Origin: Lachnospiraceae bacterium
GTDB taxonomy: Bacteria; Bacillota; Clostridia; Lachnospirales; Lachnospiraceae
Assembly: GCA_016286555.1 (NCBI GenBank)
Contig: JAEETA010000013.1
Span: 1 to 64,000 of the forward strand
DNA length: 64,000 nt
Reading direction: 5' to 3'
Below the pieces are notes generated by a model. That model was given only the letters and a program-made list of their open reading frames with translations, was not told the DNA's origin and made no database searches. Position numbers and translations under genes: made by a program. This document shows, piece after piece, positions 2,483-60,074 of the stretch. Position 1 is the first letter of the stretch; each line of letters begins with the position of its first letter.

Positions 2483-2489
2483 TGGTGCT

Positions 2490-39866: not shown

Positions 39867-39883
39867 CGCGCTATGCGCCTCCG

Positions 39884-42016
39884 TCAGCTTTCCTGGTACT
39901 TCTTCAAGACTTCCTTCACCTGGGGCAGAGAGTCCATAAAGACCTCCACCACCTTGGGATCGAACTGGGTCCCGGCACCTTCCTCCAGGATCTGCAGAGC
40001 TTTTTCCAGAGGAAATGCGGGCTTGTAGACTCTGGGAGAGGTGAGGGCATCAAACACATCCGCCACTGCCATGACCCGGGCGGAGAGAGGGATGACCTCG
40101 CCGTGGAGTCCCTCGGGGTAGCCCTTGCCGTCCCAGCGCTCGTGGTGGTATCCCGCCATGTTCCGGGCTTCCTTCAGATAGCTCTCGCCCTTGACGGTAC
40201 TGATGGCCTTTTCCATGATGTTCTTGCCGGCGGTGGTATGGGTCTTCATGATCTCGAACTCTTCCTCCGTCAGCTTCCCGGGCTTGTTCAGCACAGCGTC
40301 GGGAATGTTGATCTTGCCCACGTCATGCAGAGGCGCGGACATGACCACTGCCTCCATGTACTTGGGGGTCAGTTTCTCGGGATAGTAGCCTTTCTTTTTC
40401 AGGCCGTCCAGAATGATCCGGACATAGGCTGCCGTCTTTTGGACATGAGCGCCGGTATCGGAGTCTCTGCTCTCCACCATGTCCGCCATGGTGATGATCA
40501 GACCACTCTGCATCTGGGCGGTTGCCTCGGAGTAATGGCGGATCTCCCGCAGCTGCTCCGACATTCCCGCAGCCATCTCGCAGGCGGCGTAGTAGAGCTT
40601 CTCCACCTCGTCGCCGGTTTGAATGTTCAACTTTCGCAGGTCCCGGACATAAGTGTCCAGCTGCTTTTGATCGTCCCCCGCCTTGGAATACTGGTCCAGC
40701 CTCGCTGTGATGCTGTTAACGGGATAAACGGTGTAATAGTCCGTGATCCAGCTGCCCGTGACTACGATGAGGATCACAAAGCCGGCGATGATCAGCAGTA
40801 CGCGGATCACCAGGTTCCGGACATACTCGGTCATGTATTGCAGGGACACGTCCGCTCCCATGTAAGCCGCGGTGTGGCCGTTCCGGTCCCGGATGGGTGA
40901 ATAGGTAGTCAGCATCCAGCCAAAGTTACCCACGGACTCCACAGGAGGGATTTCCTCTCCTGCCAACAAAAGCTCCATTTCGGACATAAAGCCTTCTTCA
41001 AATTCCACGATTTCACCGGGCTGATAACCCTCCATATCCTCCGTCTCCAGATCCAGCACAAAATGGCATCCGTCCTCCCGGATCTGCAGCACATAGAGGT
41101 ACTGGATGGAGGGTGCCAGAGCCTTGATCTCCTCCATGACCTCGTAGCTCTCCACATAGCCCTCGGCTTCCCAGCCTTCCCGGAGATAATCGTCGATCCG
41201 GTCTCCGTCGATGAGAGAAGCCGCGTACTTTACCAGCTCGATAGCCTTTTCCTTCTCCTGCTCCTTGGAGTAGTTAAAGTACAGGACATAGGCCGCGATG
41301 GCCAGGATCGTTACCAGGGAGAGGGAGATGAAAAGGATCATGGCGGTGATCCTGGAGTGGAGCTTGTGCCGCACATCGGAGCCCCATTCCTTCAGGTTTT
41401 TCAGCTCCTCCGGCGACAGAGGGCGCTGACGCCAGTTGCTCTGGATGATCCTTTCCCGCAGGCTCGCCGGGATCAGCCGCACCAGAAGGGCGGAGCCGAA
41501 GATGGTGATGGTCTTGTCAAAGAGATTTACCAGGAAATTGATAACAAAGAAGATCCCCACTCTGGGCAGACCGAAACGCTCATTGACCACGTTCACTGCC
41601 TCGTTGATGGCCTCGATCTGGGGTCTGCCGAAGAGGACCCACTGCACCAGGCCGCTGAAAAACGTGGAGATCAAAACGGAGCCCAGGATAAAGCGCACCA
41701 GGGCACGGACGTTCTTTTGTTCAAAATTGCGGGAATAACGGGCCGCGAAGAGGGCCAGCAATGCATTGACGGAAGCAAAGTACAGAGATTGCTTGTTGAA
41801 AGACACACAAAAAATATTGGATACTACGGCCGTGAGAACCCCGGGGAAGGTACCGCCCAAAGCGGCCACCATAAAGGTTCCGATGGTATCCAGGTACAGG
41901 GGCAGATTGAAGCGCTGCGCCAGATATGCAAATACGATGTTGATGAGAATACCGACAGACACCGCAAAAATACTAGTAACGGTGCTCTTTTCCGGTTTGA
42001 TCCTTGGAATCTTCAC
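39884..42016 (-). CDS. HD-GYP phosphodiesterase with ECF-S-like membrane N-terminus
   Basis: The 710-residue protein starts at a GTG (GGAGG 8 bases upstream). The first 190 residues form about six helices resembling an ECF-transporter S component (for example [24 protein letters not shown]). A helix, an extracytoplasmic sensor segment (about 250-390), another helix and a HAMP-like linker follow. The HD-GYP domain has His564-Asp565 in [14 protein letters not shown] and [13 protein letters not shown]. These features fit a c-di-GMP hydrolase gated by an external cue. It heads the four-gene signalling operon. Confidence 0.88.
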
Positions 42017-43934: not shown

Positions 43935-43985
43935 CAGGGAGTATTTTAGGCGATGAAGCGAAAAATGGCAACCATAAAATAGGCA

Positions 43986-44005
43986 GGGGTGCCGGAAAGC
44001 ACCCC
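43986..44005 (-). terminator. Terminator after the FecR/InlB-repeat operon
   Basis: Arms GGGGTGC and GCACCCC with a 6-base loop, then TGCCTATTTTAT on the minus strand. It closes the 44-57.8 kb operon. Confidence 0.6.
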
Positions 44006-44046
44006 CACCGAAGATTCTGTTGTCCGGATTCCTTTCAGGTTACGGC

Positions 44047-47000
44047 TTACAGCGTATTGAAGGGAGCCGGGTTGATCACGAGCTGCGGATATGCAGTTGC
44101 ACCTGTAGTATCAAACGCAAGCATGAGATAGATATCTGTGGAGTTTGGTCCTCCTGCCTGGTTCTGCAAGACACCGTTTGCGTAAGTGTCATATGAAGGA
44201 ATCGTTATCTGATATGCATCCATATTTACAAAGTTCGGACCACCCCCCGGGTTGTTGTAGTTCACGGTTGTCAGTCCGCTGTTGGAATAGAATCCCAACA
44301 GTGTGTTTTCATCGAACAACGGGAGAAGGTATACATTATTGCCGTCTATGTAAAACAGATTTGTGGCATCGGCATCAACATAGTAGGTACCACCATTCTG
44401 AGGATCCGGATCCGTACAGTTCACTACATTATGCCCGTTATTCGCCTGGGCTTCCAGAGTGATCGATTCAGCATAGTTCCCTGCACCGGCGCTCGGTAAA
44501 GTCGTCATGCTGTTAATCTCATAAGAGTAGATATAGATATAAATCTCTCCGGTAGTTCCTGCAGGGATCATGTTGTTCATGGAATTCCCGTTGGCGTCGT
44601 AGTATCCCTTTACATAGTACCCGGTGCCATTATTCGGAAGATTGACTGCATCAAGAGCAGGCAAAACAGTGTCCGTCTCGGAATAGGAGTAGGTGGTACT
44701 CAGGGTCACGCCGGAGATCGTAATGCTCCCCGATCCTGCCAGTATGGAAGTATTGACCTGAGATCCATAATGGTAGTTCCTTTGATAGAAGTTGATCTTG
44801 AAGGTCTTGGCCGTAGCCTCTCCGTAAATGGTCAGATCCCCCGTCTGGGTAGTGGAGACTGCCGTCAGAGCCGCAGACAGTGCCGCATCGGAATACCAGC
44901 AGTTGAAATCATACCCGTTGTGGGTGGGAACCGTCAGCGCCGCTCCCGTGCCATAGGTATAGGTGGTGGGCAGGTTATAGGCCGCAGGGTCGAAATTCGT
45001 GATGCCGGTGACATCGTAGGTGATGGCATAGGTTGCGACAGTCGCCTGTCCGTAGAGAGTCACATCCCCGGTCCGGGTTGCTGCGATCTCGGTGATGGCG
45101 GCAGTCAGTCCCGCATCGGTATACCAGCCGGCAAAATTGTGGCCGGTGATGGCAGGGGCCGTGAGGGTAACTGCGGTTCCGTAGGTATACTCCGTAGGCA
45201 GATTGTAAGCCGCTGCGTCAAAGCCGTTCATACCCGTCACGCTGTAGGTGATGGCGTAGGTATTGTTGGTCACGCTGCCGTAGACCGTCACATCCCCCGT
45301 CCGGGTAGCGGCGATCTCGGTGATCGCGGTAGTCAGTCCCGCATCGGCATACCAGCCGTTAAAGGTGCGTCCCTCCAGAGTGATGCCGGAAAGGGTCGCG
45401 CCCGTACCGTAGGTGTAGGCAGTGGGCAGGTTGTATGCCGCGGGATCAAAGTCGTTCAGTCCCGTGACATTGTAGGAAATGGTATAGGCATTCGCCGTGG
45501 CAATGCCGTAGACCGTCACATCCCCCTTCTGCTCCGCAGAGATGGCGTCCATACGCGCGGTTCGGCCCGCATCGGCATACCAGCCGTCAAAGGTATAGCC
45601 CGTGATGGCGGGGATGGTAAGCCCTGAGCCCACACCTTCCGTGTAGGTCAGAGGGCACGCGTAATCGGAAGGATTAAATCCCGCGAGGCCCTCCACCACA
45701 TAATTGATGTGGCTGACGACCACTTCATCCTCGTCGTCTTCCGCCTTCACGGCAATGCCATAGAGACCGATGTCTCCGACGGTATCGGCGGGGATGTAGG
45801 ATACCGCCTCCTTCATGGTGTTGTCCCGGTACCAGCCGTAGAAATCATAGCCCCAGATGGAAGGACTGGGGATATCGATCTCGGAGCCCACCTTGTAGGT
45901 CATGGGCATGCCGTACCCTGCGGCATCGAAGCTGCTGATACCGTCCACTGCGTAGGAGATCTTATATTCGTGCGGGATGAACCTGCCGTACAGCCGGACA
46001 TTGCCCACCTGTTCCTCGGAGATGGCGGAGGTGGCGTGTTTCATGGCCTCGTCCTCATACCACCCGTCGAAGGTATAACCCGGCTTCTCGGGCTTTACCA
46101 GTGCGGTCTCCTCGCCGCTGACATAGGAAGTGACGAGCTTGAATTCTCCTGCGCTGAAGGACTTCAGACCCGTGACGGAATAGAGTACGGAATAGGTCTC
46201 GCCCACCTCGGTGCCGTCCTCGAGCCAGGTGCCGTAGAAGGTCCTGTCGCCTTCATCCTTCGCACCGATGGCAGAGGCAGAGGTGGTCAGATCCGCATCC
46301 TCATACCAGCCGTCAAAGGTATAGCCCTCTCTGGTGGGAGAAGGGAATCCGGAGAGGCCCTCGCCGTAGACGTAGGAATCCGGATAATCACCGCCGGACA
46401 TGACACTGCCGTCAATGATCCAGGTGAGGCCGTAGGTCACTCCTGCTTCGGGCTCAGTCTCCGGTGCTACCGGCTGATCGGTCACATCACCGGTGTCCTC
46501 CGGGAAGAGCCATTCGTCAAAGTCATCCGGCACCCAGCCGGTGTCCTCCAGGATCCTGGCTCGCAGAGGAGCCAGCTCCGGATCCTCCCGCAGGATCTGA
46601 CGCAGACGCTCGGGCAAATCGTGAGGCTGCACTTCTTCCACGAAAAAGTCCACGCTGTCGGTTCCGGTCTTGTCATCAAAGAGATAGACTCTGATATGCT
46701 GACCAGCGGTAATGTCGGTCTCCCTGGTACCGCCGGTGTTCGGATTGATCCCCGTGATATGAAGGTTGCCGTCCAACAGATAGAGGTCTGAGGTGTCCGC
46801 ATCCATCCAGGCGCTGGTTCCGCGGATACCCACGATCATGGTGGAGGTGCGGATATCAAAGGATTCGTCGTCGTTTAATTTCTCAGTCACGTTAAAGAGC
46901 AGACTGCCCTGTTGCAGATCCAGAGAAAGGGCTTTGCCCGATTTCTCGATGACCGCTCTGGAATCTTCCACCATGGTAATGATCTTCGTGGCATCCATGT

Positions 47001-47289
47001 CCAGTTTCAGGAGTCCATCGGATCCCGTGGTCAGCAGGCTTCCGCTGTTTAAGCGCATGTTGTCCAGGAGCTCCCGTGCGGCGCCCTTTTCATCCTGCAT
47101 AGCCACGGTTCCGTCCCGCTCAATGAGACGGATCACCACGGCGCTCAGTTTGTTTTTCCCATTCAGCAACAGTACTGCCGCCACAACCCCGGCGATCAGC
47201 AGGACCGCACACAGGATGATGGGAATCAGTTTTTTACTCCGTTTCTTATCTTCCTCAGGCGCATTTTGCAGTTTGGTCTCTTCTGCCAT
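44047..47289 (-). CDS. FecR-domain membrane protein with InlB-type B-repeats (paralog 3)
   Basis: The 1080-residue protein has a short cytoplasmic head, one helix (about 24-46), and an extracytoplasmic FecR domain (about 50-190, with SFDIRTSTMIVGIRGTSAWM). A conserved DDFDEWLFPED segment and an acidic linker follow. Then come seven InlB B-repeat/Flg_new units, each about 65-75 residues with an FxGWYxD core (TFDGWYEDADL, DFYGWYRDNTM, NFAGWYTDAGL). The unique C-terminal domain of about 220 residues has no anchor. The orientation implies a type II membrane protein with repeats outside. It follows the CHASE2-cyclase by 66 bases. Function unknown; adhesion or sensing is inferred. Confidence 0.85.
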   Translation of the reverse strand: MAEETKLQNAPEEDKKRSKKLIPIILCAVLLIAGVVAAVLLLNGKNKLSAVVIRLIERDGTVAMQDEKGAARELLDNMRLNSGSLLTTGSDGLLKLDMDATKIITMVEDSRAVIEKSGKALSLDLQQGSLLFNVTEKLNDDESFDIRTSTMIVGIRGTSAWMDADTSDLYLLDGNLHITGINPNTGGTRETDITAGQHIRVYLFDDKTGTDSVDFFVEEVQPHDLPERLRQILREDPELAPLRARILEDTGWVPDDFDEWLFPEDTGDVTDQPVAPETEPEAGVTYGLTWIIDGSVMSGGDYPDSYVYGEGLSGFPSPTREGYTFDGWYEDADLTTSASAIGAKDEGDRTFYGTWLEDGTEVGETYSVLYSVTGLKSFSAGEFKLVTSYVSGEETALVKPEKPGYTFDGWYEDEAMKHATSAISEEQVGNVRLYGRFIPHEYKISYAVDGISSFDAAGYGMPMTYKVGSEIDIPSPSIWGYDFYGWYRDNTMKEAVSYIPADTVGDIGLYGIAVKAEDDEDEVVVSHINYVVEGLAGFNPSDYACPLTYTEGVGSGLTIPAITGYTFDGWYADAGRTARMDAISAEQKGDVTVYGIATANAYTISYNVTGLNDFDPAAYNLPTAYTYGTGATLSGITLEGRTFNGWYADAGLTTAITEIAATRTGDVTVYGSVTNNTYAITYSVTGMNGFDAAAYNLPTEYTYGTAVTLTAPAITGHNFAGWYTDAGLTAAITEIAATRTGDVTLYGQATVATYAITYDVTGITNFDPAAYNLPTTYTYGTGAALTVPTHNGYDFNCWYSDAALSAALTAVSTTQTGDLTIYGEATAKTFKINFYQRNYHYGSQVNTSILAGSGSITISGVTLSTTYSYSETDTVLPALDAVNLPNNGTGYYVKGYYDANGNSMNNMIPAGTTGEIYIYIYSYEINSMTTLPSAGAGNYAESITLEAQANNGHNVVNCTDPDPQNGGTYYVDADATNLFYIDGNNVYLLPLFDENTLLGFYSNSGLTTVNYNNPGGGPNFVNMDAYQITIPSYDTYANGVLQNQAGGPNSTDIYLMLAFDTTGATAYPQLVINPAPFNTL
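45811..45916 (-). repeat. Near-identical 106-base block shared by the three FecR paralogs (paralog 3)
   Basis: This block encodes the DFYGWYRDNTMKEAV repeat and part of the unit before the next FxGWY. It is nearly identical to 50932-51037 and 53992-54097, with long runs unchanged even at third codon positions. That points to recent duplication or gene conversion. Confidence 0.75.
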
Positions 47290-47355
47290 AAATGGCTCCT
47301 TCCCCTTTTCGGTTCCGGACGTTTCGGATCCGGCCCCTCAGTGAGACTCTGTACT

Positions 47356-49191
47356 TCAGTTCTCTTTCCAATATCCCTTATAGCCCTCCAGGCTGTCCAG
47401 GGTCAAAACTTCAAATCCTTCTGCCTTACCTTTCAGCTTAATGGTGCCTCCCAGAGAGGTGGTCTGCGCCCGGTCACCCAACGCATCCGCCACACTGCGG
47501 CTGATGTAGATCATCTCCCTCGGCGCATTTGCCTCCAGTCTGGCGGCAGTGTTCACGGTATCACCGATGGCGGTAAAGTCCATGCGGCTCTCGGCACCGA
47601 TGTTACCCACGACCGCAGGACCGAAGTTCACGCCCACGCCGCAGTGAATAGACTCACCGATGGTCTCCTCGAGGCGTTTCGAGATCTCCTGCGCACCGGC
47701 CTGGATGTCAAGGGCCGTCTGACAGGCGAGATAGCAGGGATCTTCCTGGGGCAGAGGTGCGCCCCAGAATGCCATGGTGCAGTCACCCACAAATTTATCC
47801 AGGGTTCCCTTGTGACGGTGGATCACATCACTGGTCATTCCCAGGTATTCGTTCAAAATGCTGACCACGGTCTCGGGATCCATGCGTTCGGACATGGTGG
47901 TAAATCCGCGGATATCCACAAAAAGGACAGCAATGTCACAAAGTCTGCCCTGCAGTCCCAGGCTGTCGGTGCCTTCCCGCAGGATCTCGTTGACGATCTC
48001 GGGATCCACATAGCGGTTGAACATGCGCTGCACTCGCAAGCGCTCGGCTCTGGTCTGGAAGTACTGGATCAGCACGGAAGCCACATAGATGATGATGGCA
48101 CCGGCCGGGATCCACAGAGGATGCACGATGAGCCCGCTGCGGTACAGCAATACATCCGCCGCAATGCTGACCAGGACGATCCCGCCAAGGAGCAGGGCGG
48201 AGAGCTTCACCTCGAGCTTTCGGAACAGAAGAAATGCTGCCGATAAAACGACGAACAGGGTGAGGGCCTGGAGCAGATCCGAAGCCTCTCTCTTATAATC
48301 GCCGGACAGGAGCATCTCGATCACATTGGCCTGATACTCCACACCGTACATCTGTTTAGCGCGTTCCACGGAGGTGTAGATGGAGTCCTGGAGGCCGGCC
48401 GCATAAGGGCCGATGAGGACGATCTTCCCTGCGTAATAATCCGCGGGCACGCTCCCCGCCACCAAATCGGCGATGGAAATGCCGTCGTAAAAATCGCCGG
48501 GCAGGGCGGTGTAGGACACATAGAAATGCCCTCTGGCATCGGTCACAGGCATGGTCAGGGCTTCGCCCTGCTGCTCCAGGTACATGCCTGCTGCCGTGGC
48601 AGCCATGGAAGAAACCCTTTCTCCTCCGGGAACATCGATATAAGCCACCGCATGGCGCATGATCCCATCGGCGTCATACATGGCATTGATGTGGCCCTGT
48701 TTCGTCACGGCCTTCAGCTCCGGGAAGGATTCCTCAAAGCCCAGGACGGCATACATGTTGACGGTGTAGGTGCCGTTCTCGGAAATGCCGCGCTCCGAGC
48801 CGAAATTTGCCGACGCGGCTGTCACAACGCAGCCCAGATCCTTTGCTGCCTGCACCAGGTGCGCATCTGCTTCGGGAGTGGAGGTACCGGAGTAGAGCGT
48901 ATCGATGGCGACCACTGCCGGGCGCTTCTCCGGATCAGAGCCCAGGCTTTCCAGCGCCTGCGCCATGACGTCTCTGGTCCAGGTACCGTAGGGACCCAGT
49001 TCCTCCATGGCTCTCTCATCAATGCCGATGACCACCACATCTCCGGAGATGGCTCCCGGCTTCTGGAACAGGGAGTCCTCCAGCCAACGGTCCAACCGAC
49101 GGAAGATGCCCAGATATGCCACCAGCGCGATGGCGGCCGAAGCCGCCACGCACAAGAGGATCTGAAGCGTTTTCTTCTGCTTCCCCTTCAT
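47356..49191 (-). CDS. CHASE2-domain class III adenylate cyclase
   Basis: The 611-residue protein has an N-terminal helix, an extracytoplasmic CHASE2 domain (about 35-300, with DVVVIGIDERAMEELGPYGTW), three membrane helices, and a cytoplasmic cyclase domain (about 400-595). The two metal-binding aspartates are Asp426 (LFVDIRGFTT) and Asp470 (KFVGD). The substrate-specifying pair is Lys466/Thr540, the ATP-type pair seen in cyanobacterial cyclases, and Asn547/Arg551 are the transition-state residues. All required residues are present, so it should make cAMP. It sits between two FecR/InlB-repeat genes, 24 bases from the upstream one. Confidence 0.93.
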   Translation of the reverse strand: MKGKQKKTLQILLCVAASAAIALVAYLGIFRRLDRWLEDSLFQKPGAISGDVVVIGIDERAMEELGPYGTWTRDVMAQALESLGSDPEKRPAVVAIDTLYSGTSTPEADAHLVQAAKDLGCVVTAASANFGSERGISENGTYTVNMYAVLGFEESFPELKAVTKQGHINAMYDADGIMRHAVAYIDVPGGERVSSMAATAAGMYLEQQGEALTMPVTDARGHFYVSYTALPGDFYDGISIADLVAGSVPADYYAGKIVLIGPYAAGLQDSIYTSVERAKQMYGVEYQANVIEMLLSGDYKREASDLLQALTLFVVLSAAFLLFRKLEVKLSALLLGGIVLVSIAADVLLYRSGLIVHPLWIPAGAIIIYVASVLIQYFQTRAERLRVQRMFNRYVDPEIVNEILREGTDSLGLQGRLCDIAVLFVDIRGFTTMSERMDPETVVSILNEYLGMTSDVIHRHKGTLDKFVGDCTMAFWGAPLPQEDPCYLACQTALDIQAGAQEISKRLEETIGESIHCGVGVNFGPAVVGNIGAESRMDFTAIGDTVNTAARLEANAPREMIYISRSVADALGDRAQTTSLGGTIKLKGKAEGFEVLTLDSLEGYKGYWKEN

Positions 49192-49215
49192 TTGTTCCTC
49201 TCTTTCAAACCTTAC

Positions 49216-52200
49216 TTAGTTTGGATTGAGCACGGAGTCGCTCAGGTATCCCTGCACACCGCCGCCGGAAGGATTGGCCACATCGTAGATGAAGGCCATG
49301 TAGAAACTGTCCTGGCCACTGAGGGTCCCTGTCTGAGGGTCATAATTCCTGTAAGCGGTGATTTCGGTCTGTAATCCTTTGGTGTTTGTTCCGGGCTCCT
49401 CCGTATAGTTCCTTCTGTCGATGCCGCCGGTTTCCGTCACCGCGCCCAGGAGAGTCGTTCCATCCCATGCGGTGAACAGATGGACGCCATTCCGCGCATC
49501 CACGGTAAAGATATCCGAGTTGGCCGACAGATCCACGTAGCAGCCGGTACCGCCGGCAGTCCTGCATTCGAGAATGGTTGAGGTCGTCAGTCGCACGCTG
49601 GACAGCATTTCGGTGCCCTGATCCAATGCATCCCTGAGGACGTAGGCCCTGACATAAATATCGATGTTTCCGTCGGTTCCCGCAGGGATAGAGGTGATGG
49701 GATTGCTGTTCTCGTCCAGGAACTGCATATAGTAGGTATAGGTGGAGGCAGCATTACCGGTTCCGGCCACGATCTTGTTCAGATCGGGAAGGGCGGTGCC
49801 CGTGGTTTCGGAATAATCGTAGGTCACCGGTACCGTTACGCCTGCAATCTCGGGCTGCGCTGCATTCAAGGCAAGATCACCGGTAGCGGACTGCTGAGCG
49901 AATTCATACACCGTCTGCTTATAGGTGATGGTAAAGGTTCTGGCCGTTGCGGAACCGTAAAGTGCCAGATCTCCCCTGGTGTCTGCCGGGATCTCCGAGA
50001 TGGGCATGGTGAGGTTCGCATCGGTGTACCAGCAGTCAAAGTCATAACCATTGGAGGTGGGCTGCGGCAGCGCCGTTACCGTACCGCCGGTATAGGTGGT
50101 GGGCAGGTTGTAGGTTGCGGCATCAAAGTTCGTGATACCGGTCACTGTGTAGGTGACATTGTAGGTCAGCGCCGTCACCTGACCGTAGCATGTCACATCT
50201 CCCGTCTGGGTTGCGGAGATCCGGGTAAGGGACGTGGTCAGTCCCGCATCGGAGTACCAGCCGTTAAAGTCATAGCCCGCGATGGCAGGTGCGGAAAGAT
50301 CCACCGCCGTACCATAGGTGTAGGTGACGGGCAGATTGTAAGCCGTCGGATCGAAGGAATTTAATCCGTCGATGGAATAGATGATGTTGTAGGTATTGTT
50401 GGTCGCTCTGCCGTAAACCGTTACATTTCCGGTACTGGTAGCAGGGATCTCGGTGATCCGGGTGGTCCGGGCACCGTCGGAATACCAGCCGTCCAGGGTT
50501 TTTCCTTCGAGCTGAGGAACCGTCAGGGCCACAGCCGTTCCGGAGGTGTAGCTGGTGGGCAGGCCATAGGTAGCGGGATCAAATCCGCCCATACCCAGGA
50601 CCTGATAGGAGATGGTAAAGCTTGTTGCCGTTGCGACACCGTAGACCGTCACATCCTCTTTTTCTGCCGCAGAGATCGCACTGATGGGTGCAGTACGGCC
50701 CGCATCCGCATACCAGCCGTCAAAGGTATATCCCGGGATGGAAGGGATAGTCAGTCCGGAGCCGACCCCTTCCGTGTAGGTCAGGGGCAGTCCGTAATCT
50801 CCGGGGTTAAAGCCCTGGATGCCTTCCACCACGTAGAAGATATTGTGGGTCTTCTCATCCGCAGTCTTCACGGCGATGCCGTAGAGGCCGATGTCTCCCA
50901 CGGTGTCCTCGGGCAGCGTGGAGACTGCCTCCTTCATGGTTTTGTCGGTGTACCAACCGTAGAAATCATAGCCCCAGATGGAAGGACTGGGGATATCGAT
51001 CTCGGAGCCCACCTTGTAGGTCATGGGCATGCCGTAGCCGGCGGCGTCAAAGCTTGCGATGCCGTCCACTGCATAGGAGATCTTAAACTCCATGGGCGTA
51101 AACTTTCCGTAGAGACGGATATTACCGACCTCTTCTTCGGAGATGGCAGTTACGGACTGCTTCAATCCCTCGTCCGCATACCAGCCGTCAAAGATATAAC
51201 CGGGCTTCTCGGGCTTTACCAGGGCAGCCCCCTCGCCGCTGACATAGGTAGTGACGAGTTTAAATTCTCCTGCATTAAAGGACTTCAGTCCCGTAACGGT
51301 ATAGAGCACGGAGTAGGTCTCGCCAAGCTTGTCGCCGTCCTCGATCCAGGCGCCGTAGAATGTCCTGTCGCCTTCATCATCCTTGCCGATGGCTCCTGCG
51401 GAGGTGGTCAGATCCGCATCCTCGTACCAGCCGTCAAAGGTATACCCTTCCTTTGCAGGAGAAGGGAAGCCGGCGAGGCCCTCTCCGTAGACATAGGAAT
51501 CGGGGTAGTCGCCGCCGGACATGACACTGCCGTCAATGATCCAGGTAAGGCCGTAGGTCACACCGGGCTCCTCCTCTGGCTCCGTGGGCTCTTCCACAGT
51601 GTCCACGGGATTCTCATCCTCGGGGAAGAGCCAGTCATCGAATTCATCGGGCACCCAGCCGGTATCCTCCAGGATCCTCTTCCGCAGAGGCTCCAGTTCC
51701 GGATCCTGCCGCAGGAGCTGACGCAGGCGCTCCGGCAGGTCATGAGGGTTTACGTTTTCCACGAAAAAGTCCACACTGTCCTCTCCCTCCTTGTCATCGA
51801 AGAGATAGACATGGACATGCTGCCCGGCCACGATATCGATCTCCTTGGTCGCGCCGGTCTTCGGGTTGGTACCGACGATATGAAGCTTGCCGTCCAGGAG
51901 GTATACATCTCCGGAAGAAGAATCGATCCAGGCGCTGGTTCCGCGGATACCCACGATCATGGTAGAGGTGCGGATATCAAAGGATTCGTCGTCGTTGAGC
52001 TTTTCGGTCACGTTAAAGAGCAGGCTCCCCTGCTGCAGATCCAGGGCCAGAGCCTTGCCGGATTTATTGATCGCCAGGCGGGAATCCTCTACCATGGTGA
52101 CGATCTTCGTGGTATCCATGTCCAGCTTCAGCTCACCGTCAGCTCCTGTGTTCAGAAGACTGCCGCTGTTTAAGCGCATGTTGTCCAGAAGCTCTCTGTC

Positions 52201-52413
52201 CGCTCCCTTCTCGTCCTGCAATGCCACGGTGCCGTTTCGTTCAATGAGACGGATCACCACCGCTGACAGGTCGTTTTTACCGTTCAGGAGGAAAATCGCC
52301 GCCACAATACCGGCGATGACGAGCAGCGCGCACAGAATGATGATGATGATGCGCTTTTTACTGCCTTTCTTTCCCTCGTCCTTCGTTTGTTGCAGTTTGG
52401 TCTCTTCTGCCAT
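49216..52413 (-). CDS. FecR-domain membrane protein with InlB-type B-repeats (paralog 2)
   Basis: The 1065-residue paralog keeps the same order: short cytoplasmic head, helix, FecR domain (SFDIRTSTMIVGIRGTSAWI), DWLFPED segment, acidic linker, seven FxGWYxD repeats, and a unique C-terminal domain of about 230 residues. The FecR half is very close to paralog 3, while the distal repeats and C-termini differ strongly. Repeats are typical of extracellular InlB/Flg_new modules. It lies 40 bases after paralog 1 and 24 bases before the cyclase, so the genes are probably cotranscribed. The variable C-terminus may determine ligand choice. Confidence 0.85.
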   Translation of the reverse strand: MAEETKLQQTKDEGKKGSKKRIIIIILCALLVIAGIVAAIFLLNGKNDLSAVVIRLIERNGTVALQDEKGADRELLDNMRLNSGSLLNTGADGELKLDMDTTKIVTMVEDSRLAINKSGKALALDLQQGSLLFNVTEKLNDDESFDIRTSTMIVGIRGTSAWIDSSSGDVYLLDGKLHIVGTNPKTGATKEIDIVAGQHVHVYLFDDKEGEDSVDFFVENVNPHDLPERLRQLLRQDPELEPLRKRILEDTGWVPDEFDDWLFPEDENPVDTVEEPTEPEEEPGVTYGLTWIIDGSVMSGGDYPDSYVYGEGLAGFPSPAKEGYTFDGWYEDADLTTSAGAIGKDDEGDRTFYGAWIEDGDKLGETYSVLYTVTGLKSFNAGEFKLVTTYVSGEGAALVKPEKPGYIFDGWYADEGLKQSVTAISEEEVGNIRLYGKFTPMEFKISYAVDGIASFDAAGYGMPMTYKVGSEIDIPSPSIWGYDFYGWYTDKTMKEAVSTLPEDTVGDIGLYGIAVKTADEKTHNIFYVVEGIQGFNPGDYGLPLTYTEGVGSGLTIPSIPGYTFDGWYADAGRTAPISAISAAEKEDVTVYGVATATSFTISYQVLGMGGFDPATYGLPTSYTSGTAVALTVPQLEGKTLDGWYSDGARTTRITEIPATSTGNVTVYGRATNNTYNIIYSIDGLNSFDPTAYNLPVTYTYGTAVDLSAPAIAGYDFNGWYSDAGLTTSLTRISATQTGDVTCYGQVTALTYNVTYTVTGITNFDAATYNLPTTYTGGTVTALPQPTSNGYDFDCWYTDANLTMPISEIPADTRGDLALYGSATARTFTITYKQTVYEFAQQSATGDLALNAAQPEIAGVTVPVTYDYSETTGTALPDLNKIVAGTGNAASTYTYYMQFLDENSNPITSIPAGTDGNIDIYVRAYVLRDALDQGTEMLSSVRLTTSTILECRTAGGTGCYVDLSANSDIFTVDARNGVHLFTAWDGTTLLGAVTETGGIDRRNYTEEPGTNTKGLQTEITAYRNYDPQTGTLSGQDSFYMAFIYDVANPSGGGVQGYLSDSVLNPN
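50932..51037 (-). repeat. Near-identical 106-base block shared by the three FecR paralogs (paralog 2)
   Basis: Encodes the DFYGWYTDKTMKEAV repeat. It matches the blocks at 45811-45916 and 53992-54097 with few changes, most of them in the first 25 bases. Confidence 0.7.
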
Positions 52414-52452
52414 GATGCTTCCCTTCCTTGTTTACCGGATCATGAATCCGAT

Positions 52453-55400
52453 TTAATTGTTTACCAATGCATCCAGATAAAGATAAGAGGACAGGTGCGG
52501 CGGATTAGAAATCGTTGTGTCATAGCCGATCGCTAAATACATCACCCACGTTCCCGTAAACGAAGCGTCAGTGTAAAACTCGACTGTCGTCTCGTATGCC
52601 TGCACATTCGGATTACTCTGAGGAGAGGTTCCGCTCCAACCGGAGGCATCCACGATCTCAGTGGATCCGTTATTGTCCCGCAGAAGGCCCACCAGTGCCT
52701 GATCATTCCATATGGTGAGCATGTGGTAATCTCCCTGCACGTCCCGGATAAAATATTGGGGTCCGTGCGTCTGATCCACGAACAGTTGCTGTGGACCTCC
52801 TCCGATCGCGACCTGCGCGCCCGTATCGAAGATCAACAGATCTCCCTGCTGATTGATGCTTGTGAAATATCCATTGGTATCTCCCCAGGGATCCTCGACC
52901 TGATAGGACTTCACGTACAGATCCACATCCGCATCGGTGCCGGCAGGAATGGATGTGACCCGATTCCCGTTGGCATCATAGAAGCCTTCATAGAACAACG
53001 TCGGCTCATATCCGGCACCGGCCGCAACCCACCCAACATACGAGAGGGCCGGCAAAGCCGTATCCGTTTCGGAGTATGTGAACTCCACGGGTACCTCCAC
53101 ATCTCCGATCTTCGGAGTTGCAGCGCCTGCCAGATTCATATCGGCAGGGGCCGATGCAGCCTGCTGTAACTGATATGTGGTCGCATAGTAGGTGATCGTA
53201 TGGGTGTGTGCCGTCACCGTACCGTAGAGCGTCAGGTCTCCTGTCTGCGTAGCCGGGATCTCGGTAATGGCCACGGTCCGACCCGTGTCGGAATACCAGC
53301 CTGCGAAATCGTGACCCGTGATGACCGGCGCAGTGAGGGAACTCGCCGTTCCGTAAGTATACTCTACAGGCAGGTTGTAAGCTGCTGCGTCGAAATGATT
53401 TACCCCCGTTACATCATAGGAGATGGCATAGGTATTGTTGGTCACGCTGCCATAGACCGTCACGTTTCCGGTCATGGTAGCGGCGATCTCGGTGATCGCC
53501 GTGGTCATGCCCGCATCGGCATACCAGCCGTCAAAGGTACGTCCCTCCAGGGTGATGGCGGAGAGGGTCGCTCCCACACCGTAGGTGTAGGCAGTGGGCA
53601 GGTTGTATGCCGCGGGATCAAAGTCATTCAGTCCCGTGACATTGTAGGAAATGGTATAGGCATTCGCAGTGGCAATGCCGTAGACCGTCACATCCCCCTT
53701 CTGCTCCGGGGAGATGGAATCCATGCGCACGGCGCGGCCCGCATCGGCATACCAGCCGTCAAAGGTGTGGCCGGTGATGGCAGGGATGGTAAGCCCGGAG
53801 CCCACACCTTCCGTGTAGGTCAGAGGGCACGCGTAATCGGAAGGATCAAAGTCCGCAAAGCCCTCCACAACATAGTGGATGTTGCTGACGACCACTTCAT
53901 CCTCGTCGTCATCGTCGTCCTCCGCCTTCACGGCTATGCCGTAGAGGCCGATGTCTCCGATGGTTTCGGCGGGGATGTAGGATACCGCCTCCTTCATGGT
54001 GTTGTCCCGGTACCAGCCGTAGAAATCATAGCCCCAGATGGAAGGGCTGGGGATATCGATCTCGGAGCCCACCTTGTAAGTCATGGGCATGCCGTACCCG
54101 GCGGCATCGAAGCTGCCGATACCATCAACGGTGTAAGAGATCCTGTATTCATGAGGGATGAACCTGCCATACAGCCGGACATTCCCCACCTGCTCCCCGG
54201 AGATGGCGGAGGCAGCTTTCTTCATAGCCTCGTCCTCGTACCATCCGTCGAAGGTATAGCCGGGCTTTTCGGGCTTTACCAGTGCGGTCTCCTCGCCGCT
54301 GACATAGGAAGTGACCAGCTGAAAATCTCCAACACTAAAGGACTTCAGACCGGTGACGGTATAGAGCACGGAATAGGTCTCACCGACCGCATCTCCGTCA
54401 GAGATCCAGGTGCCATAGAAGGTCAGGTCGCCCTCCTCATCCTTTGCAATGGCAGCAGCAGAGACCGTCAGCTCCGGGTCCAGATACCATCCGTCAAAGG
54501 TAAAGCCTTCCCTCACGGGAGACGGGAATCCGGAAAGACCCACACCGGGCTTGTAGGAATCGGGATAGTCCGCGCCTTTCATGACAGTTCCATCGATCAG
54601 CCAGGTAATGACACAGGTCAGATCGCCCCCATCAATGGGCGCTTTTGTGACTTCATCAGAGTCGTTCCCATCATGCCACGGAGCCCCTTCGGGGAAGAGC
54701 CAATCATCGAAATCGTCCGGTTGCCAGCCGGTATCCTGAAGGACTCTCTCTCGTAAGGATTCCAGATCCGTGTCCTCTCTCAGAACCTGACGGAGTCTCT
54801 CCGGCAGATCATGCGGCTGAACGTCCTCTACGAAAAAAGCGACACTGTCGTCACCGTCTTTATCATCAAAAAGGAACACCTTCACATGCTGACCGGCCTG
54901 AATATCGATCTCTTTCGTCGCACCGGTTTTGGGGTTTGTGCCGATGATGTGGAGCATGCCATCCAGAAGGAACACTTCCTCCGCATCGGCATCCACCCAG
55001 GCTGAGGTACCGCGGATGCCCACCATCATGTTGGAGGTGCGGATGTCGAAGCTTTCGTCATCGTTCAGATGCTCGGTAACATTGAAGAGCAGATTGCCGC
55101 CAAGCAGATCCAGCGTCAGTGCCTTCCCGTCCTTATGGATCTCCAGACGGGAATTTTCCACCATGGTAAGGATCCTGGTGGTGTCCATGTCCAGCTTGAG
55201 TAAACCGTCTGCACCGGTGGACAGGATGCTGCCGCCGGAGAGGCGCATATTGTCCAGGAGTTCTCTGTCCGATCCCTTCTCATCCTGCAATGCCACAGTG
55301 CCGTCGCGCTCAATGAGACGGATCACCACCGCAGAGAGATCATCTTTTCCGTTCAGCAGGAAGATCGCCGCCAAAGTGCCCGCGACGAGCAGGAGAGCGC

Positions 55401-55476
55401 ACAGCAGGATCCATATGAACTTTTTGCTCTTTCCTCTCTCATTTTCTGAGGACTGCAGTGCTTTCTCATCACTCAT
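52453..55476 (-). CDS. FecR-domain membrane protein with InlB-type B-repeats (paralog 1)
   Basis: The 1007-residue paralog has a cytoplasmic head of about 18 residues, one helix (FIWILLCALLLVAGTLAAIFLL), FecR domain (SFDIRTSNMMVGIRGTSAWV), DDWLFPEG segment, and six FxGWYxD repeats, one fewer than the others. The C-terminal domain (about 250 residues) is unrelated by eye to those of paralogs 2 and 3. It is the first FecR gene in the operon, 57 bases after the GAF-HD-GYP gene. In other bacteria FecR domains act in transmembrane signalling, or occur as stand-alone domains near CHASE2 cyclases. No sigma factor is nearby, so the classical FecI/FecR mechanism is unlikely. Confidence 0.85.
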   Translation of the reverse strand: MSDEKALQSSENERGKSKKFIWILLCALLLVAGTLAAIFLLNGKDDLSAVVIRLIERDGTVALQDEKGSDRELLDNMRLSGGSILSTGADGLLKLDMDTTRILTMVENSRLEIHKDGKALTLDLLGGNLLFNVTEHLNDDESFDIRTSNMMVGIRGTSAWVDADAEEVFLLDGMLHIIGTNPKTGATKEIDIQAGQHVKVFLFDDKDGDDSVAFFVEDVQPHDLPERLRQVLREDTDLESLRERVLQDTGWQPDDFDDWLFPEGAPWHDGNDSDEVTKAPIDGGDLTCVITWLIDGTVMKGADYPDSYKPGVGLSGFPSPVREGFTFDGWYLDPELTVSAAAIAKDEEGDLTFYGTWISDGDAVGETYSVLYTVTGLKSFSVGDFQLVTSYVSGEETALVKPEKPGYTFDGWYEDEAMKKAASAISGEQVGNVRLYGRFIPHEYRISYTVDGIGSFDAAGYGMPMTYKVGSEIDIPSPSIWGYDFYGWYRDNTMKEAVSYIPAETIGDIGLYGIAVKAEDDDDDEDEVVVSNIHYVVEGFADFDPSDYACPLTYTEGVGSGLTIPAITGHTFDGWYADAGRAVRMDSISPEQKGDVTVYGIATANAYTISYNVTGLNDFDPAAYNLPTAYTYGVGATLSAITLEGRTFDGWYADAGMTTAITEIAATMTGNVTVYGSVTNNTYAISYDVTGVNHFDAAAYNLPVEYTYGTASSLTAPVITGHDFAGWYSDTGRTVAITEIPATQTGDLTLYGTVTAHTHTITYYATTYQLQQAASAPADMNLAGAATPKIGDVEVPVEFTYSETDTALPALSYVGWVAAGAGYEPTLFYEGFYDANGNRVTSIPAGTDADVDLYVKSYQVEDPWGDTNGYFTSINQQGDLLIFDTGAQVAIGGGPQQLFVDQTHGPQYFIRDVQGDYHMLTIWNDQALVGLLRDNNGSTEIVDASGWSGTSPQSNPNVQAYETTVEFYTDASFTGTWVMYLAIGYDTTISNPPHLSSYLYLDALVNN
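53992..54097 (-). repeat. Near-identical 106-base block shared by the three FecR paralogs (paralog 1)
   Basis: Encodes the DFYGWYRDNTMKEAV repeat. It is closest to the copy at 45811-45916, with only a handful of differences. Paralogs 1 and 3 share much of their flanking repeats as well. Confidence 0.75.
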
Positions 55477-55533
55477 GGGCGATACCTCTTCCGCCTGTAA
55501 TCGTCCCGGCGGGATCGTGTCTGCTACATGGGT

Positions 55534-56988
55534 TTATGCTTCGTCCTTCTTCCAGGCGCCGCTCCTCTCAAAGAGATCCAGGATCTCTCCGTCCAGCTTG
55601 CCTTCTTCCTGCATGCTGTGCAGGATCCCCAGTGCCTTCTCACAGGGCATGGGAGGCTTGTAGGGCCTGTCCTCTGCCGTGAGGGCATCGTAGATATCGA
55701 TGATGGTAAGGAGGCGAACCTCTTTCGGAAGGTCCTCCGCCTTCAGATGCTTCGGATAGCCGGAGCCGTCCAGCAGCTCGTGGTGGCCGCCGGCCCACTC
55801 GGGTACTTTCAGGTAGGAACCGCTGAACTTCATGCGGGAGAGCATCTCTGCGGTGCGGACCACATGGCTCTGCATGATCTGCCGCTCCTCGTCCGTCAGG
55901 GTACCCTTCTGGATCAGCATGCAGTGCAGCTCCGTCTCGTTCAGCATGGGCACGGGATTTCCTTCGGAATCCAGCACATTGTGTTCTCCCATGGCACGGA
56001 TCTGTGCCATCACGTCATCCGGCAGGAAGCCGGCGCTGTTTTTGGCAAGGATCAGGTCTCTGGACTCTTCGATGTAACGGATCTCTTCCTCCGCTGCATC
56101 CTTCTCCTCAGGATGCTCCAGCAGACGGATCCGTTGCATCAGGATTGCCACCTCCAGCTTGTGCATGAGGCCGGTGACATTCACCCCCAGACGGTCTGCT
56201 TTGTCCATGACCTCCAGCGGGATCACCAGTTTTCCCACGTCATGGAGCCAGACGCTCATGAGGAAGGGATCGATGGCATCCTCGGCAAATTTCCACTCGC
56301 TGTCGGAAGCATTCAGCCACTCGATGAAACGCTGGCCGTAGCGCACCATACTGCGGGTGTGATTGGCGTTGTAGGGACTCCTCATGTCGATGGCGCTTGC
56401 CATAACCTGCACGAAGGAATGGAGGATATCAAACACTTCCTGAGCCAGCCTGCGGTTGTTCATACTCACCGCAGCCAGGGAGGACAGCGCGTAGATGGTT
56501 CTCTCGTACTCCTCCGAGAAAGGAATGACATTGCCGTCAGAATCCATAGCGTTCAGGAGCTGCAGCACACCGATGACATTTCCCTTGTCATCCTCCATGG
56601 GAAGGACCAGCAGGGAAGTGGTTCTGTAATTGTTCAGTGCATCGTATTTTTTGGGACCTGAGAAATCATATTCGGTGGATTCATAAACGTCCGGGACATT
56701 GATGCGTCTCTTTTCCCGGGCACAGATGGCACAGATATTACCCGCATCCAGCGATACGGGAGGCAGTGTGACGTTCCCCTGGCTCTTGGACATGTGGAAG
56801 TTCTTGGAACGGGTCACCACGTTATGGAAATGCAGAAATCCGTCTTCCAGACTATAGACGGTACCGCCGTCGCAGCCTGTCAGATCCATGGCCTCGCCGA
56901 TGATGTGATCCAGCACCAGGTCAATGTTTTTCTGCGCAGACAGCTCAATGGCGATCTGAATCAGACGGTCATTTGAAAGTTCCCTCAC
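55534..56988 (-). CDS. GAF-HD-GYP phosphodiesterase
   Basis: I chose the GTG at 56988 because AGGAGG lies 6 bases upstream; an earlier in-frame start would overlap the MBL gene. The 484-residue product has an N-terminal GAF domain (about 10-165, TGCDGGTVYSLEDGFLHF) and an HD-GYP domain with His249-Asp250 in LHDVGKLVIPLEVM. The GYP-type region reads GGHHELLDGSGYPKHL. An insertion of about 110 residues separates the HD motif from the later helices, longer than usual. It is a likely c-di-GMP hydrolase controlled by a small ligand, or it may act on another cyclic nucleotide. It is cotranscribed with the FecR and cyclase genes. Confidence 0.87.
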   Translation of the reverse strand: MRELSNDRLIQIAIELSAQKNIDLVLDHIIGEAMDLTGCDGGTVYSLEDGFLHFHNVVTRSKNFHMSKSQGNVTLPPVSLDAGNICAICAREKRRINVPDVYESTEYDFSGPKKYDALNNYRTTSLLVLPMEDDKGNVIGVLQLLNAMDSDGNVIPFSEEYERTIYALSSLAAVSMNNRRLAQEVFDILHSFVQVMASAIDMRSPYNANHTRSMVRYGQRFIEWLNASDSEWKFAEDAIDPFLMSVWLHDVGKLVIPLEVMDKADRLGVNVTGLMHKLEVAILMQRIRLLEHPEEKDAAEEEIRYIEESRDLILAKNSAGFLPDDVMAQIRAMGEHNVLDSEGNPVPMLNETELHCMLIQKGTLTDEERQIMQSHVVRTAEMLSRMKFSGSYLKVPEWAGGHHELLDGSGYPKHLKAEDLPKEVRLLTIIDIYDALTAEDRPYKPPMPCEKALGILHSMQEEGKLDGEILDLFERSGAWKKDEA

Positions 56989-56999
56989 GTTCTCCCTCC

Positions 57000-57788
57000 T
57001 CAAATCTCGATCACCTGAAGTCTCTTTGCGTAAGCCGCATCCGGGCATTTGGCCTGCAGGGCCTGTTCCCGTTTTGCCAGCATCTCGTCCGTATGTCTGG
57101 GATCGTGGTGGGTCAGAAGGAGCTTCTTCGCCCCCGCTTCCGCCATGATCCGTAATCCCATCTCCGGGGTGGAATGACCAAATCCCGCCCTGGAAGGGTA
57201 TTCTTCTTCAAAATACTGCCCGTCGTAGATCAGGAGGTCACACCCTTCTGCGAACTCCGCCAGTCTTTCCTCCAGATCCCCGGAATGTTCAAAGTCCGTG
57301 GCATAGACCAGGGATTTGCTTTCGTGCGTAATGCGAAAGATCGTGCATCCGCCGGGATGAACCCCCTCCATGGTATCCACCCGGACATTCCCCAGGAAAA
57401 AGGTATCCTTTACCTCGGAAAAACGCAGGTCCGCGGGGAAGGACTCCACCATCACCGGCCACAGCGGCGGAGAGAAGAGATGGTCTACCTGCGCCTGCAC
57501 ATCTCCGATGGTTCTGCGGACGCCGTAGATGGTCACCACCTTGTCCGCCACGAAGAGGTGCCGGAAAAAGCACAGTCCCATCATATGGTCCAGGTGCGGA
57601 TGAGTCAGCAGTACGCTGACATGTCCCTCCAGATGCTCCGGCGCTGCCATGAGGCCACTGCCCGCATCCAGAAAAATGGTCTGTCCTGCTGCCTCCAGGA
57701 GATATGCGGAGGTGGCTCCGCCATAGATTGTAAATTCGGGTCCGTCCACGGGAATGGATCCCCGGGCTCCCAAAACTGTCAGCCTCAT
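57000..57788 (-). CDS. MBL-fold metallo-hydrolase
   Basis: The 262-residue protein has the metallo-beta-lactamase metal motif THPHLDHMMG (His63, His65, Asp67, His68). Further ligands lie in VYATDFEHSG and LLLTHHDP. It opens MRLTVLGARGSIPVDGPEF, typical of MBL phosphodiesterase-like proteins. It is the first gene of the FecR-cyclase operon, with the GAF-HD-GYP start 11 bases after its stop. Given a cyclase in the same operon, cyclic-nucleotide hydrolysis is an attractive guess, but the substrate is not visible in the sequence. Confidence 0.85.
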   Translation of the reverse strand: MRLTVLGARGSIPVDGPEFTIYGGATSAYLLEAAGQTIFLDAGSGLMAAPEHLEGHVSVLLTHPHLDHMMGLCFFRHLFVADKVVTIYGVRRTIGDVQAQVDHLFSPPLWPVMVESFPADLRFSEVKDTFFLGNVRVDTMEGVHPGGCTIFRITHESKSLVYATDFEHSGDLEERLAEFAEGCDLLIYDGQYFEEEYPSRAGFGHSTPEMGLRIMAEAGAKKLLLTHHDPRHTDEMLAKREQALQAKCPDAAYAKRLQVIEI

Positions 57789-60050: not shown

Positions 60051-60074
60051 ATGCTTGTTTTTTGTGTGGAATAC

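Follow-up and report, generated by a model that had tools for sequence, protein, structure and literature searches.

A candidate operon-encoded relay from surface FecR proteins through cAMP to c-di-GMP in a Lachnospiraceae bacterium

Six genes around a CHASE2 cyclase

The window analysed here is a stretch of 64,000 nucleotides from a Lachnospiraceae bacterium, a Firmicute probably of gut origin. It contains six codirectional genes on the minus strand, ordered in the ORF table as MBL, GAF-HD-GYP, FecR1, FecR2, cyclase, and FecR3 (Table 1). A preliminary description of the sequence had reported these genes with gaps of 11–66 nt. Both points stand: Pfam returns the same identities (MBL hydrolase, GAF-HD-GYP protein, three FecR proteins, and CHASE2 cyclase), and the gaps computed from coordinates are 11, 57, 39, 24, and 66 nt. 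The first gap is 11 nt because a GTG start at 56988 is taken for GAF-HD-GYP; the longest open reading frame starts at 57048, within MBL, and the orthologue in the nearest relative, G010, begins with the identical residues VRELSND. The stem downstream of FecR3 is a possible operon end. The evidence for it is weak, since a consensus scan of the region found 17 terminator-like sites where shuffled sequence gave 10.2 on average.

Table 1. Features of the six-gene locus, in window coordinates
Feature	Position	Strand	Evidence
MBL-fold hydrolase, probable cAMP phosphodiesterase (atypical class-II, PF12706; YhfI/Rv1339-like)	57000..57788	-	Pfam, NCBIfam, PDB sequence match
GAF-HD-GYP, probable cAMP-gated c-di-GMP phosphodiesterase	55534..56988	-	Pfam, PDB sequence matches, AF2 model
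FecR1: TM + FecR domain + 6 InlB-type repeats + tip	52453..55476	-	ORF, Pfam, blastp
FecR domain of FecR1	54976..55224	-	Pfam, residues 85-167
FecR1 tip region, homologous to other two tips	52456..53244	-	blastp, alignment
FecR2: TM + FecR domain + 7 InlB-type repeats + tip	49216..52413	-	ORF, Pfam, blastp
FecR domain of FecR2	51901..52155	-	Pfam, residues 87-171
FecR2 tip region, all-beta model	49219..49968	-	AF2 model
CHASE2 class III nucleotide cyclase, 4 TM	47356..49191	-	Pfam, catalytic residues kept
FecR3: TM + FecR domain + 7 InlB-type repeats + tip	44047..47289	-	ORF, Pfam, blastp
FecR domain of FecR3	46789..47034	-	Pfam, residues 86-167
FecR3 tip region	44050..44784	-	blastp, alignment
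Terminator-like stem, 12 pairs, downstream of FecR3	43982..44009	-	consensus scan, weak

The cyclase has four hydrophobic segments and matches CHASE2 (E 1.7e-38) and Guanylate_cyc (E 1e-24) in Pfam. Its residues D426, K466, D470, T540, N547, and R551, which we take to be the two metal Asp, the Lys/Thr adenine pair, and the active-site Asn and Arg, are invariant in 13 cyclases and conserved in 90% or more of a set of 32. The six catalytic residues named earlier are thus all present, and judged by them the enzyme looks active. A profile search of the genome (89.84% complete) found it to be the sole PF00211 cyclase.

The MBL protein matches Lactamase_B_2 (E 2e-19). H63, H65, D67, H68, H144, D165, and H227, presumably the metal ligands, are invariant in 10 sequences and make up the full PF12706 metal site. 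Profile scores are nearly level for RNase Z (66.0 bits) and YhfI (66.7 bits), and the NCBIfam model NF041851 gives E 3.5e-16 but 59.3 bits, below its cut-off of 400. With Rv1339/YhfI, described as atypical class-II phosphodiesterases in the relevant passages of PMC9293780, the protein has in common the PF12706 MBL fold, near full-length similarity, and the PDB relative 6kns, which is its first PDB sequence match. It is a probable cAMP phosphodiesterase, assigned from sequence and lying far under the NCBIfam cut-off.

Each FecR protein has a single N-terminal hydrophobic segment, a FecR domain above the Pfam cut-off, and Flg_new/InlB-type repeat stretches (six in FecR1, seven each in FecR2 and FecR3), as previously noted. 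Internalins combine such repeats with leucine-rich repeats, whereas here the repeats occur without them: no internalin-type LRR was matched by Pfam in the three proteins. Similarly, an ECF sigma factor and a TonB receptor adjoin FecR in FecI/FecR/FecA iron signalling, but neither was found by Pfam among the nine genes at 35619–57788.

The preliminary description, sound as to genes, domains, and catalytic residues, erred in calling the C-termini of these proteins unrelated. The tips align in blastp (E 1e-30, 7e-13, and 2e-8), which rules that reading out, and they appear to be fast-diverging homologues. Against G010, dN/dS is 0.32–0.34 in the tips, 0.12–0.16 in the shaft, and 0.09–0.10 in the FecR region; in the cyclase it is 0.25 for CHASE2 and 0.04 for the catalytic domain. 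Positive selection on the tips was considered and rejected, as all pairwise values are below 1; the tips are therefore fast-evolving but constrained. The FecR2 tip, matched in 2 of 59 genomes (the window's own and G010), was modelled by AF2 from five sequences as all-beta, with a best pLDDT of 77 and two of the five models at 56 and 43. In Foldseek, no PDB entry matched this model at E ≤ 0.001, the nearest being the pilus tip protein Mfa5 (E 0.055).

FecR and CHASE2 across the phylum

FecR next to CHASE2 is common in the phylum rather than peculiar to this locus. Of 299 genomes drawn from across the phylum, 38 had CHASE2, and FecR was present in 32 of these (no match in the other six); among the 261 genomes without CHASE2 it was present in 6 (Fisher p 6e-31, ancestry ignored). 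It lay within 10 kb of CHASE2 in 24 of the 38, on the same strand every time. Within the genus, 24 genomes with CHASE2 averaged 3.3 FecR matches against 0.7 in seven without (p 4e-4; mean completeness equal), although four of those seven still had a match. By eye, several genus FecR genes adjoin genes judged to be housekeeping.

Two further sets of loci were compared. The first (L085–L164) comprises the best 80 of at least 579 matches, chosen by likeness to the window cyclase; the second comprises 34 loci. FecR lay within 8 kb of CHASE2 in 53/80 and 24/34, respectively, many contigs being cut. The two sets are not independent, because at least seven loci are apparently shared (for example, L085/L045, L128/L035, and L150/L055). 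Among the 41 loci of the similarity-chosen set with at least 6 kb on either side, 35 had FecR and 31 MBL. Counts of FecR, MBL, and receptors were scored on all stop-to-stop frames, as the ORF table hides MBL in L039 and the cyclase in L119, L120, L122, and L124 under long antisense ORFs.

Gene-by-gene listings of relative loci rest partly on that antisense-prone table. According to these listings, InlB-repeat FecR proteins adjoin CHASE2 in L032, L055, L062, L092, L108, and L166, and so does an InlB-repeat ORF in L100, L126, and L134, where it reaches the locus end and any FecR part falls outside view. The layout is thus not peculiar to the window. CHASE2-HD-GYP fusions adjoin FecR in L061–L063, showing FecR-CHASE2 with a different output.

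FecR is co-inherited with the cyclase. In a mirror-tree comparison of 72 pairs, which include near-duplicates, FecR distances track the cyclase catalytic domain (partial rank correlation 0.55) and CHASE2 (0.48). CHASE2 could not be singled out as the FecR contact in this way, the correlation being equally good for the catalytic domain; direct contact between FecR and CHASE2 is presumed.

Many surface proteins carry InlB-type repeats, and the genus also has solitary FecR genes. The FecR-InlB proteins might then be adhesins or wall organisers that are targets of the cyclase, or passengers in one operon, rather than inputs. For Sinorhizobium, the relevant part of PMC5498481 names the FecR protein gene smc02177 as a target of the cAMP regulator Clr. 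This is nevertheless unlikely. Most FecR partners in the phylum draw are ORFs of 262–419 aa with no repeats detected, just downstream of the cyclase, and FecR is rare without CHASE2. It also adjoins CHASE2-HD-GYP proteins and, from passages of PMC5192318, CHASE2 histidine kinases.

The cyclic-nucleotide receptor and its exchange

HD-GYP proteins break down c-di-GMP and GGDEF proteins synthesise it. The window's GAF-HD-GYP protein matches HD_5 (E 9.2e-31) and GAF (E 8.3e-12), and its HD, HDxGK, distal His, HHE, and GYP motifs are all present. The motif residues (H230, H269 D270 K273, H395, H422 H423 E424, G430 Y431 P432, and D451) are invariant in 12 sequences. Its AF2 model (pLDDT 83) has 4mcw as top fold match, and the HD fold matches are the HD-GYP enzymes 4mcw, 9rbz, and 4r8z.

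The GAF domain shows sequence kinship to cyclic-nucleotide GAFs such as those of Tlr0485, Lcd1, and CyaB2. The 21 best PDB matches of its profile comprise 4mcw and 20 from cyclic-nucleotide cyclases or phosphodiesterases or Lcd1 (5w10, titled in Foldseek as Lcd1 GAF with cAMP). 4mcw ranks second, so that kinship to it and to the cyclic-nucleotide GAFs is about equally close; we know of no cAMP ligand for this GAF-HD-GYP protein. NKFDE, a motif of cyclic-nucleotide GAFs, is degenerate in the window protein, where N and E remain but K and D do not; three GGDEF variants keep the NK. The protein is probably a cAMP receptor joining cAMP and c-di-GMP.

It could instead be a cAMP phosphodiesterase itself, feedback-controlled through GAF as in mammalian PDEs, with c-di-GMP uninvolved and MBL acting on another nucleotide. 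In its GAF-HD order the protein resembles PDE2/5/6, themselves among the PDB matches, and the distal His lies about 125 residues from the HD pair, a longer spacing than we know for HD-GYP enzymes. Against this improbable alternative are the invariant HD-GYP residues and HD-GYP fold matches, the replacement of HD by GGDEF in other loci, and MBL being the better candidate for cAMP hydrolysis.

Receptors are exchanged among CHASE2 loci. In 37 phylum-wide loci, with no apparent overlap with the 80-locus set, a cNMP-binding (CNB) protein was nearby in 22 (20 with a CRP-like HTH), GAF-HD in 8, both in none, and neither in 7 (exclusion p 1.7e-4). MBL occurred in four, every one with GAF-HD (p 0.001). 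FecR lay within 8 kb in 19/22 CNB loci versus 2/8 GAF-HD loci, so GAF-HD loci are strongly linked to FecR only nearer the window. In nearer relatives, GAF is joined to HD-GYP or GGDEF: among the 41 loci above, 17 had GAF-HD, 15 GAF-GGDEF, and 37 some cyclic-nucleotide receptor, while MBL-GAF-GGDEF fusions occur in 14 of the 80 similarity-chosen loci. HD and GGDEF were exchanged in at least three changes on a FastTree cyclase tree, in which 31 of 102 inner branches are poorly supported and long branches are flagged.

It is very unlikely that co-location is all there is, that is, signalling genes of separate pathways gathered by chance or shared expression. The genome is admittedly rich in c-di-GMP genes (44 GGDEF matches, 1 PilZ). 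However, the linkage survives rearranged gene order and receptor exchange in many loci, and GAF-HD-GYP is the sole full-length GAF-HD match in its genome. No CNB domain exceeded the cut-off there; one more candidate cAMP receptor is a 764-aa protein whose CNB match is sub-threshold.

A possible two-messenger relay

We consider an operon-encoded relay from surface FecR to cAMP to c-di-GMP the best reading, at a probability of roughly 0.55. Three single-pass membrane proteins would hold their FecR domains near the membrane while an InlB-type shaft carries a fast-evolving, possibly ligand-sensing tip outward. The FecR proteins would control CHASE2, the extracytoplasmic domain of the genome's sole detected class III cyclase, and this enzyme would make cAMP. 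cAMP would bind the GAF of GAF-HD-GYP, altering c-di-GMP breakdown, and the MBL enzyme would hydrolyse cAMP, resetting the relay. In the window's clade, a surface signal would most likely lower c-di-GMP; in sister clades, where a related GAF carries GGDEF, it would raise it. The earlier interpretation named a lack of conserved linkage in relatives as grounds for refutation, and on this test it stands: relatives keep the FecR-CHASE2 linkage. Its cyclase residues also hold, as does cAMP with c-di-GMP as the likely output, enzyme activity being read from sequence. Its unrelated C-termini are given up, and FecR beside CHASE2 is common in the phylum.

A wider reading, held tentatively and at somewhat less than even odds, is that FecR proteins are the CHASE2 input and that the pair fronts cAMP signalling in much of the phylum. 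The receptor would be exchangeable: a CRP regulator, GAF-HD-GYP, GAF-GGDEF, or a CNB fused to a Na+/H+ antiporter or SpoIIE phosphatase. In gut lineages this sensor would have come to convert cAMP into a c-di-GMP signal, with about three reversals of sign, and the lineage of the window would have expanded its FecR input to several giants, divergent in their tips, that feed a single cyclase.

To our knowledge, cAMP signalling in gut anaerobes has been little studied. One open-access library was searched: no description of the assembled relay was found, nothing on CHASE2 with adenylate cyclase in Firmicutes, and only unrelated matter on FecR, adenylate cyclase, and MBL together. FecR-CHASE2 co-occurrence across the phylum names a testable answer to what CHASE2 senses, its ligand having been stated as unknown in 2016 (PMC5192318, in part). 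The presence of CRP-type regulators, GAF-HD-GYP, or GAF-GGDEF in this neighbourhood suggests that gut anaerobes have a compact natural device for converting cAMP into c-di-GMP signals, and the sign of the c-di-GMP response could be predicted from gene content.

Each step of the proposed relay has a known counterpart: the Campylobacterota CHASE2-FecR-PDE cluster, Tlr0485, Lcd1, and Rv1339. The Campylobacterota cluster, as outlined in passages of PMC9239204, shares with the window a CHASE2 adenylate cyclase, a FecR-domain protein, and a cAMP phosphodiesterase (here the candidate is MBL). In contrast, the window's FecR proteins are giant and single-pass, and GAF-HD-GYP is added; TPR, a feature of that cluster, was not matched by Pfam (E ≤ 0.01) in any of the nine genes at 35619–57788. 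The Burkholderia BiofilmReg operon likewise sets a FecR protein beside a CHASE2 sensor, but that sensor is a histidine kinase, its output is a two-component system, and its FecR carries LysM (PMC5192318, same passages). Tlr0485 of Thermosynechococcus, a cAMP-gated GAF type, is likened here by its description in the review PMC8846402, whose relevant passages mention no FecR-CHASE2 operon. Lcd1 of Leptospira, a GAF-GGDEF protein activated by cAMP (passages of PMC8846402 and PMC11800159; PDB 5w10), gates a c-di-GMP enzyme through GAF with cAMP, as proposed for the window. Its output is opposite in sign to that of the window's HD-GYP, and the GAF-GGDEF variants of the sister clades have the same domain order.

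The six-gene run and a proposed relay

The minus-strand run of six genes described at the outset was confirmed. In order, it encodes a metallo-beta-lactamase-fold (MBL) hydrolase, a GAF-HD-GYP protein, FecR1, FecR2, a CHASE2 cyclase and FecR3, with spacers of 11–66 nt. The spacer between the MBL and GAF-HD-GYP genes is 11 nt provided that the latter begins at a GTG, a start common to the nearest relative (genome G010). A terminator-like stem lies 3' of FecR3, ahead of a SulP transporter gene. Each FecR protein has a single N-terminal hydrophobic segment, and the cyclase has one ahead of CHASE2 and three behind. All six catalytic residues previously listed for the cyclase are present and conserved. 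The genes that come next downstream of the SulP transporter encode a 1415-aa hybrid histidine kinase of the propeller type and another membrane HD-GYP protein, whose N-terminus resembles ECF-S at a score below cut-off. The window also carries three copies of the Clostridiales-1 sRNA (RF01699; 84–124 bits).

Most likely, the CHASE2 cyclase would receive from the FecR proteins a signal that arises at the wall or beyond it; its cAMP would pass to the GAF domain, c-di-GMP would then change, and the MBL hydrolase would clear cAMP. The parts of such a relay are already known from two precedents. A Campylobacterota cluster shares FecR adjoining a CHASE2 cyclase with a cAMP phosphodiesterase, for which the MBL is the candidate in the window (PMC9239204). 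A Burkholderia system shares FecR adjoining CHASE2, there with LysM on FecR and a kinase output (PMC5192318). Searches of one open-access library found no published description of the relay as a whole, of the exchange of receptors or of how widely it occurs in the phylum.

FecR proteins and the CHASE2 cyclase

The suspected association of FecR with CHASE2 was borne out across genomes. In a phylum-wide draw of 299 genomes, CHASE2 occurred in 38 and FecR in 38 at E<=0.001 (33 of these over the FecR cut-off). Both were present in 32 of the 38 CHASE2 genomes, compared with FecR in 6 of the 261 without CHASE2 (Fisher p 6e-31, kinship ignored). FecR lay within 10 kb of CHASE2 in 24 of the 38, on the same strand in every case. 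Within the genus, a FecR match was found in 23/24 genomes with CHASE2 versus 4/7 without, the mean number of matches being 3.3 and 0.7, respectively. Stand-alone FecR genes in the genus adjoin genes judged by eye to be housekeeping; one cyclase may therefore serve FecR proteins encoded elsewhere in the genome.

A PF00211 profile search found one cyclase in the window genome and matches in 24 of 31 genus genomes, with two in G018 and exactly one in each of the other 23, where by position it is the CHASE2 cyclase. Ten genus loci (L036, L037, L041, L044, L046–L049, L051, L056) have a [FeFe]-hydrogenase-like gene, assigned by a Pfam run on the L037 copy, directly 3' of the cyclase. It is absent beside the window cyclase, and two genomes that lack a CHASE2 match, G002 and G026, also carry close homologues (89% and 97%). 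Seven loci (L055, L126, L129, L131, L134, L136, L140) encode, between the FecR/InlB gene and the cyclase, a propeller protein with NHL repeats that is apparently exported; the Pfam assignment comes from the L055 copy.

The C-termini of FecR1–3, initially called unrelated, are in fact homologous. The paralogues are 62–85% identical in the FecR region and shaft and 26–33% in the tips. Compared with G010, the FecR2 shaft is 88–94% identical and its tip 71%; for FecR3 and its likely orthologue, split over two contigs, the values are 92–98% and 39%. The tips thus evolve faster than the rest of these proteins, although their pairwise dN/dS against G010 stays at 0.32–0.34. A search with the FecR2 tip matched 2 of 59 genomes, the window genome and G010, and its model is all-beta, with no confident structural match. 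Against relative loci L039 and L165, dS is 0.10–0.34 in the InlB shaft and 0.53–1.46 in the FecR region, tip, cyclase and GAF-HD, as if the shaft had undergone homogenisation or exchange.

Candidate hydrolase and cAMP receptor

The window MBL matches PF12706 with invariant metal-site residues. Its best PDB sequence match is 6kns, B. subtilis YhfI, which served as template for Rv1339, an atypical class-II cyclic-nucleotide phosphodiesterase, according to the Rv1339 paper (PMC9293780). NF041851 matches nearly full-length at a score far under cut-off, and by profile score RNase Z is about as close as the YhfI-type enzyme. From sequence, we infer cAMP as the probable substrate.

A GAF profile built from one HD-type and three GGDEF-type domains ranked 1ykd (CyaB2), 4mcw (PmGH), PDE5, PDE10, PDE2, PDE6 and 5w10 ahead of other PDB GAFs. 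The AF2 model of GAF-HD-GYP (pLDDT 83) has 4mcw as its best fold match, then PDE and 1ykd GAFs, and also 5w10, entitled as the Lcd1 GAF with cAMP. A review lists as cAMP-responsive both Lcd1, a GAF-GGDEF protein, and Tlr0485, which is GAF-HD-GYP like the window protein (PMC8846402). In the window GAF, the NKFDE motif is only partly kept, a point against its being cAMP-responsive.

The window genome has 44 GGDEF matches and one PilZ, a large c-di-GMP network. It has no cNMP-binding domain (CNB) protein over cut-off, the nearest being a sub-threshold domain in one 764-aa protein, which fits GAF-HD-GYP as its main cAMP receptor; at 89.84% completeness, such absences are provisional.

Receptors near CHASE2 loci

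Loci of named relatives were ranked by similarity to the window cyclase, and the best 80 of 579 were read; they come from Lachnospiraceae, Oscillospiraceae, Selenomonadaceae, unplaced Clostridia and others, often of ruminant origin. Same-strand genes within 8 kb included FecR in 53, MBL in 47 and GAF-HD in 28. GAF-GGDEF occurred in 20, 14 of them MBL-GAF-GGDEF fusions, and never together with GAF-HD; CNB occurred in six, one an overlap case (L112). Where at least 6 kb was available on both sides (41 of these 80), FecR was found in 35, MBL in 31 and any receptor in 37. Mapped onto a FastTree built from 105 cyclases, the switch between HD and GGDEF requires at least three changes (43 rows with neither state excluded). 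Pfam matched GGDEF in L101, L152 and L094, and GAF over cut-off in the latter two, L101 falling just under (27.3 of 28.6 bits). The L101 fusion has a Pfam MBL match, and its MBL weakly matches Apyc1.

In 37 phylum-wide loci, picked regardless of neighbours and read over the same span, a cNMP-binding protein occurred in 22, GAF-HD in eight and both in none (p 1.7e-4); the seven with neither include some on short contigs. A home-made profile found a CRP-like HTH C-terminus in 20 of the 22, and Pfam named HTH_Crp_2 in all five of those scanned. A putative cAMP receptor thus often adjoins the cyclase, its type varying between loci. MBL occurred in four loci, each with GAF-HD (p 0.001). FecR occurred in 23, comprising 19/22 CNB loci versus only 2/8 GAF-HD loci, so its close link to GAF-HD is a trait of nearer relatives. 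Unusual neighbours in single loci are included in the table.

Positions of features in the window and in loci of relatives (L-numbers)
Sequence	Position	Strand	Feature
Window	44047-57788	minus	Six-gene run
Window	56988	minus	GTG start of GAF-HD-GYP
Window	44047-55476		Stretch compared for dS
Window	35619-42016	minus	Hybrid histidine kinase and second HD-GYP protein
Window	611-768	minus	Clostridiales-1 sRNA
Window	2319-2492	minus	Clostridiales-1 sRNA
Window	60067-60234	minus	Clostridiales-1 sRNA
L061	10657-12711		CHASE2 fused to inserted HD-GYP, adjoining FecR, without cyclase domain
L062	3914-5953		Same HD-GYP type and arrangement
L063	4101-6140		Same HD-GYP type and arrangement
L060	1330-5084		Na+/H+ antiporter with a fused CNB; the CHASE2 cyclase gene follows immediately downstream (overlap between the longest ORFs); FecR-like gene below Pfam cut-off nearby
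L066	906-5092		Single-domain cNMP-binding protein flanked by RCK-type channel-like and D-Ala-D-Ala ligase-like genes
L076	3160-12186		Look-alike of the L066 trio, as judged by its starts; a FecR/InlB/LRR protein of 1557 aa is encoded divergently beside it
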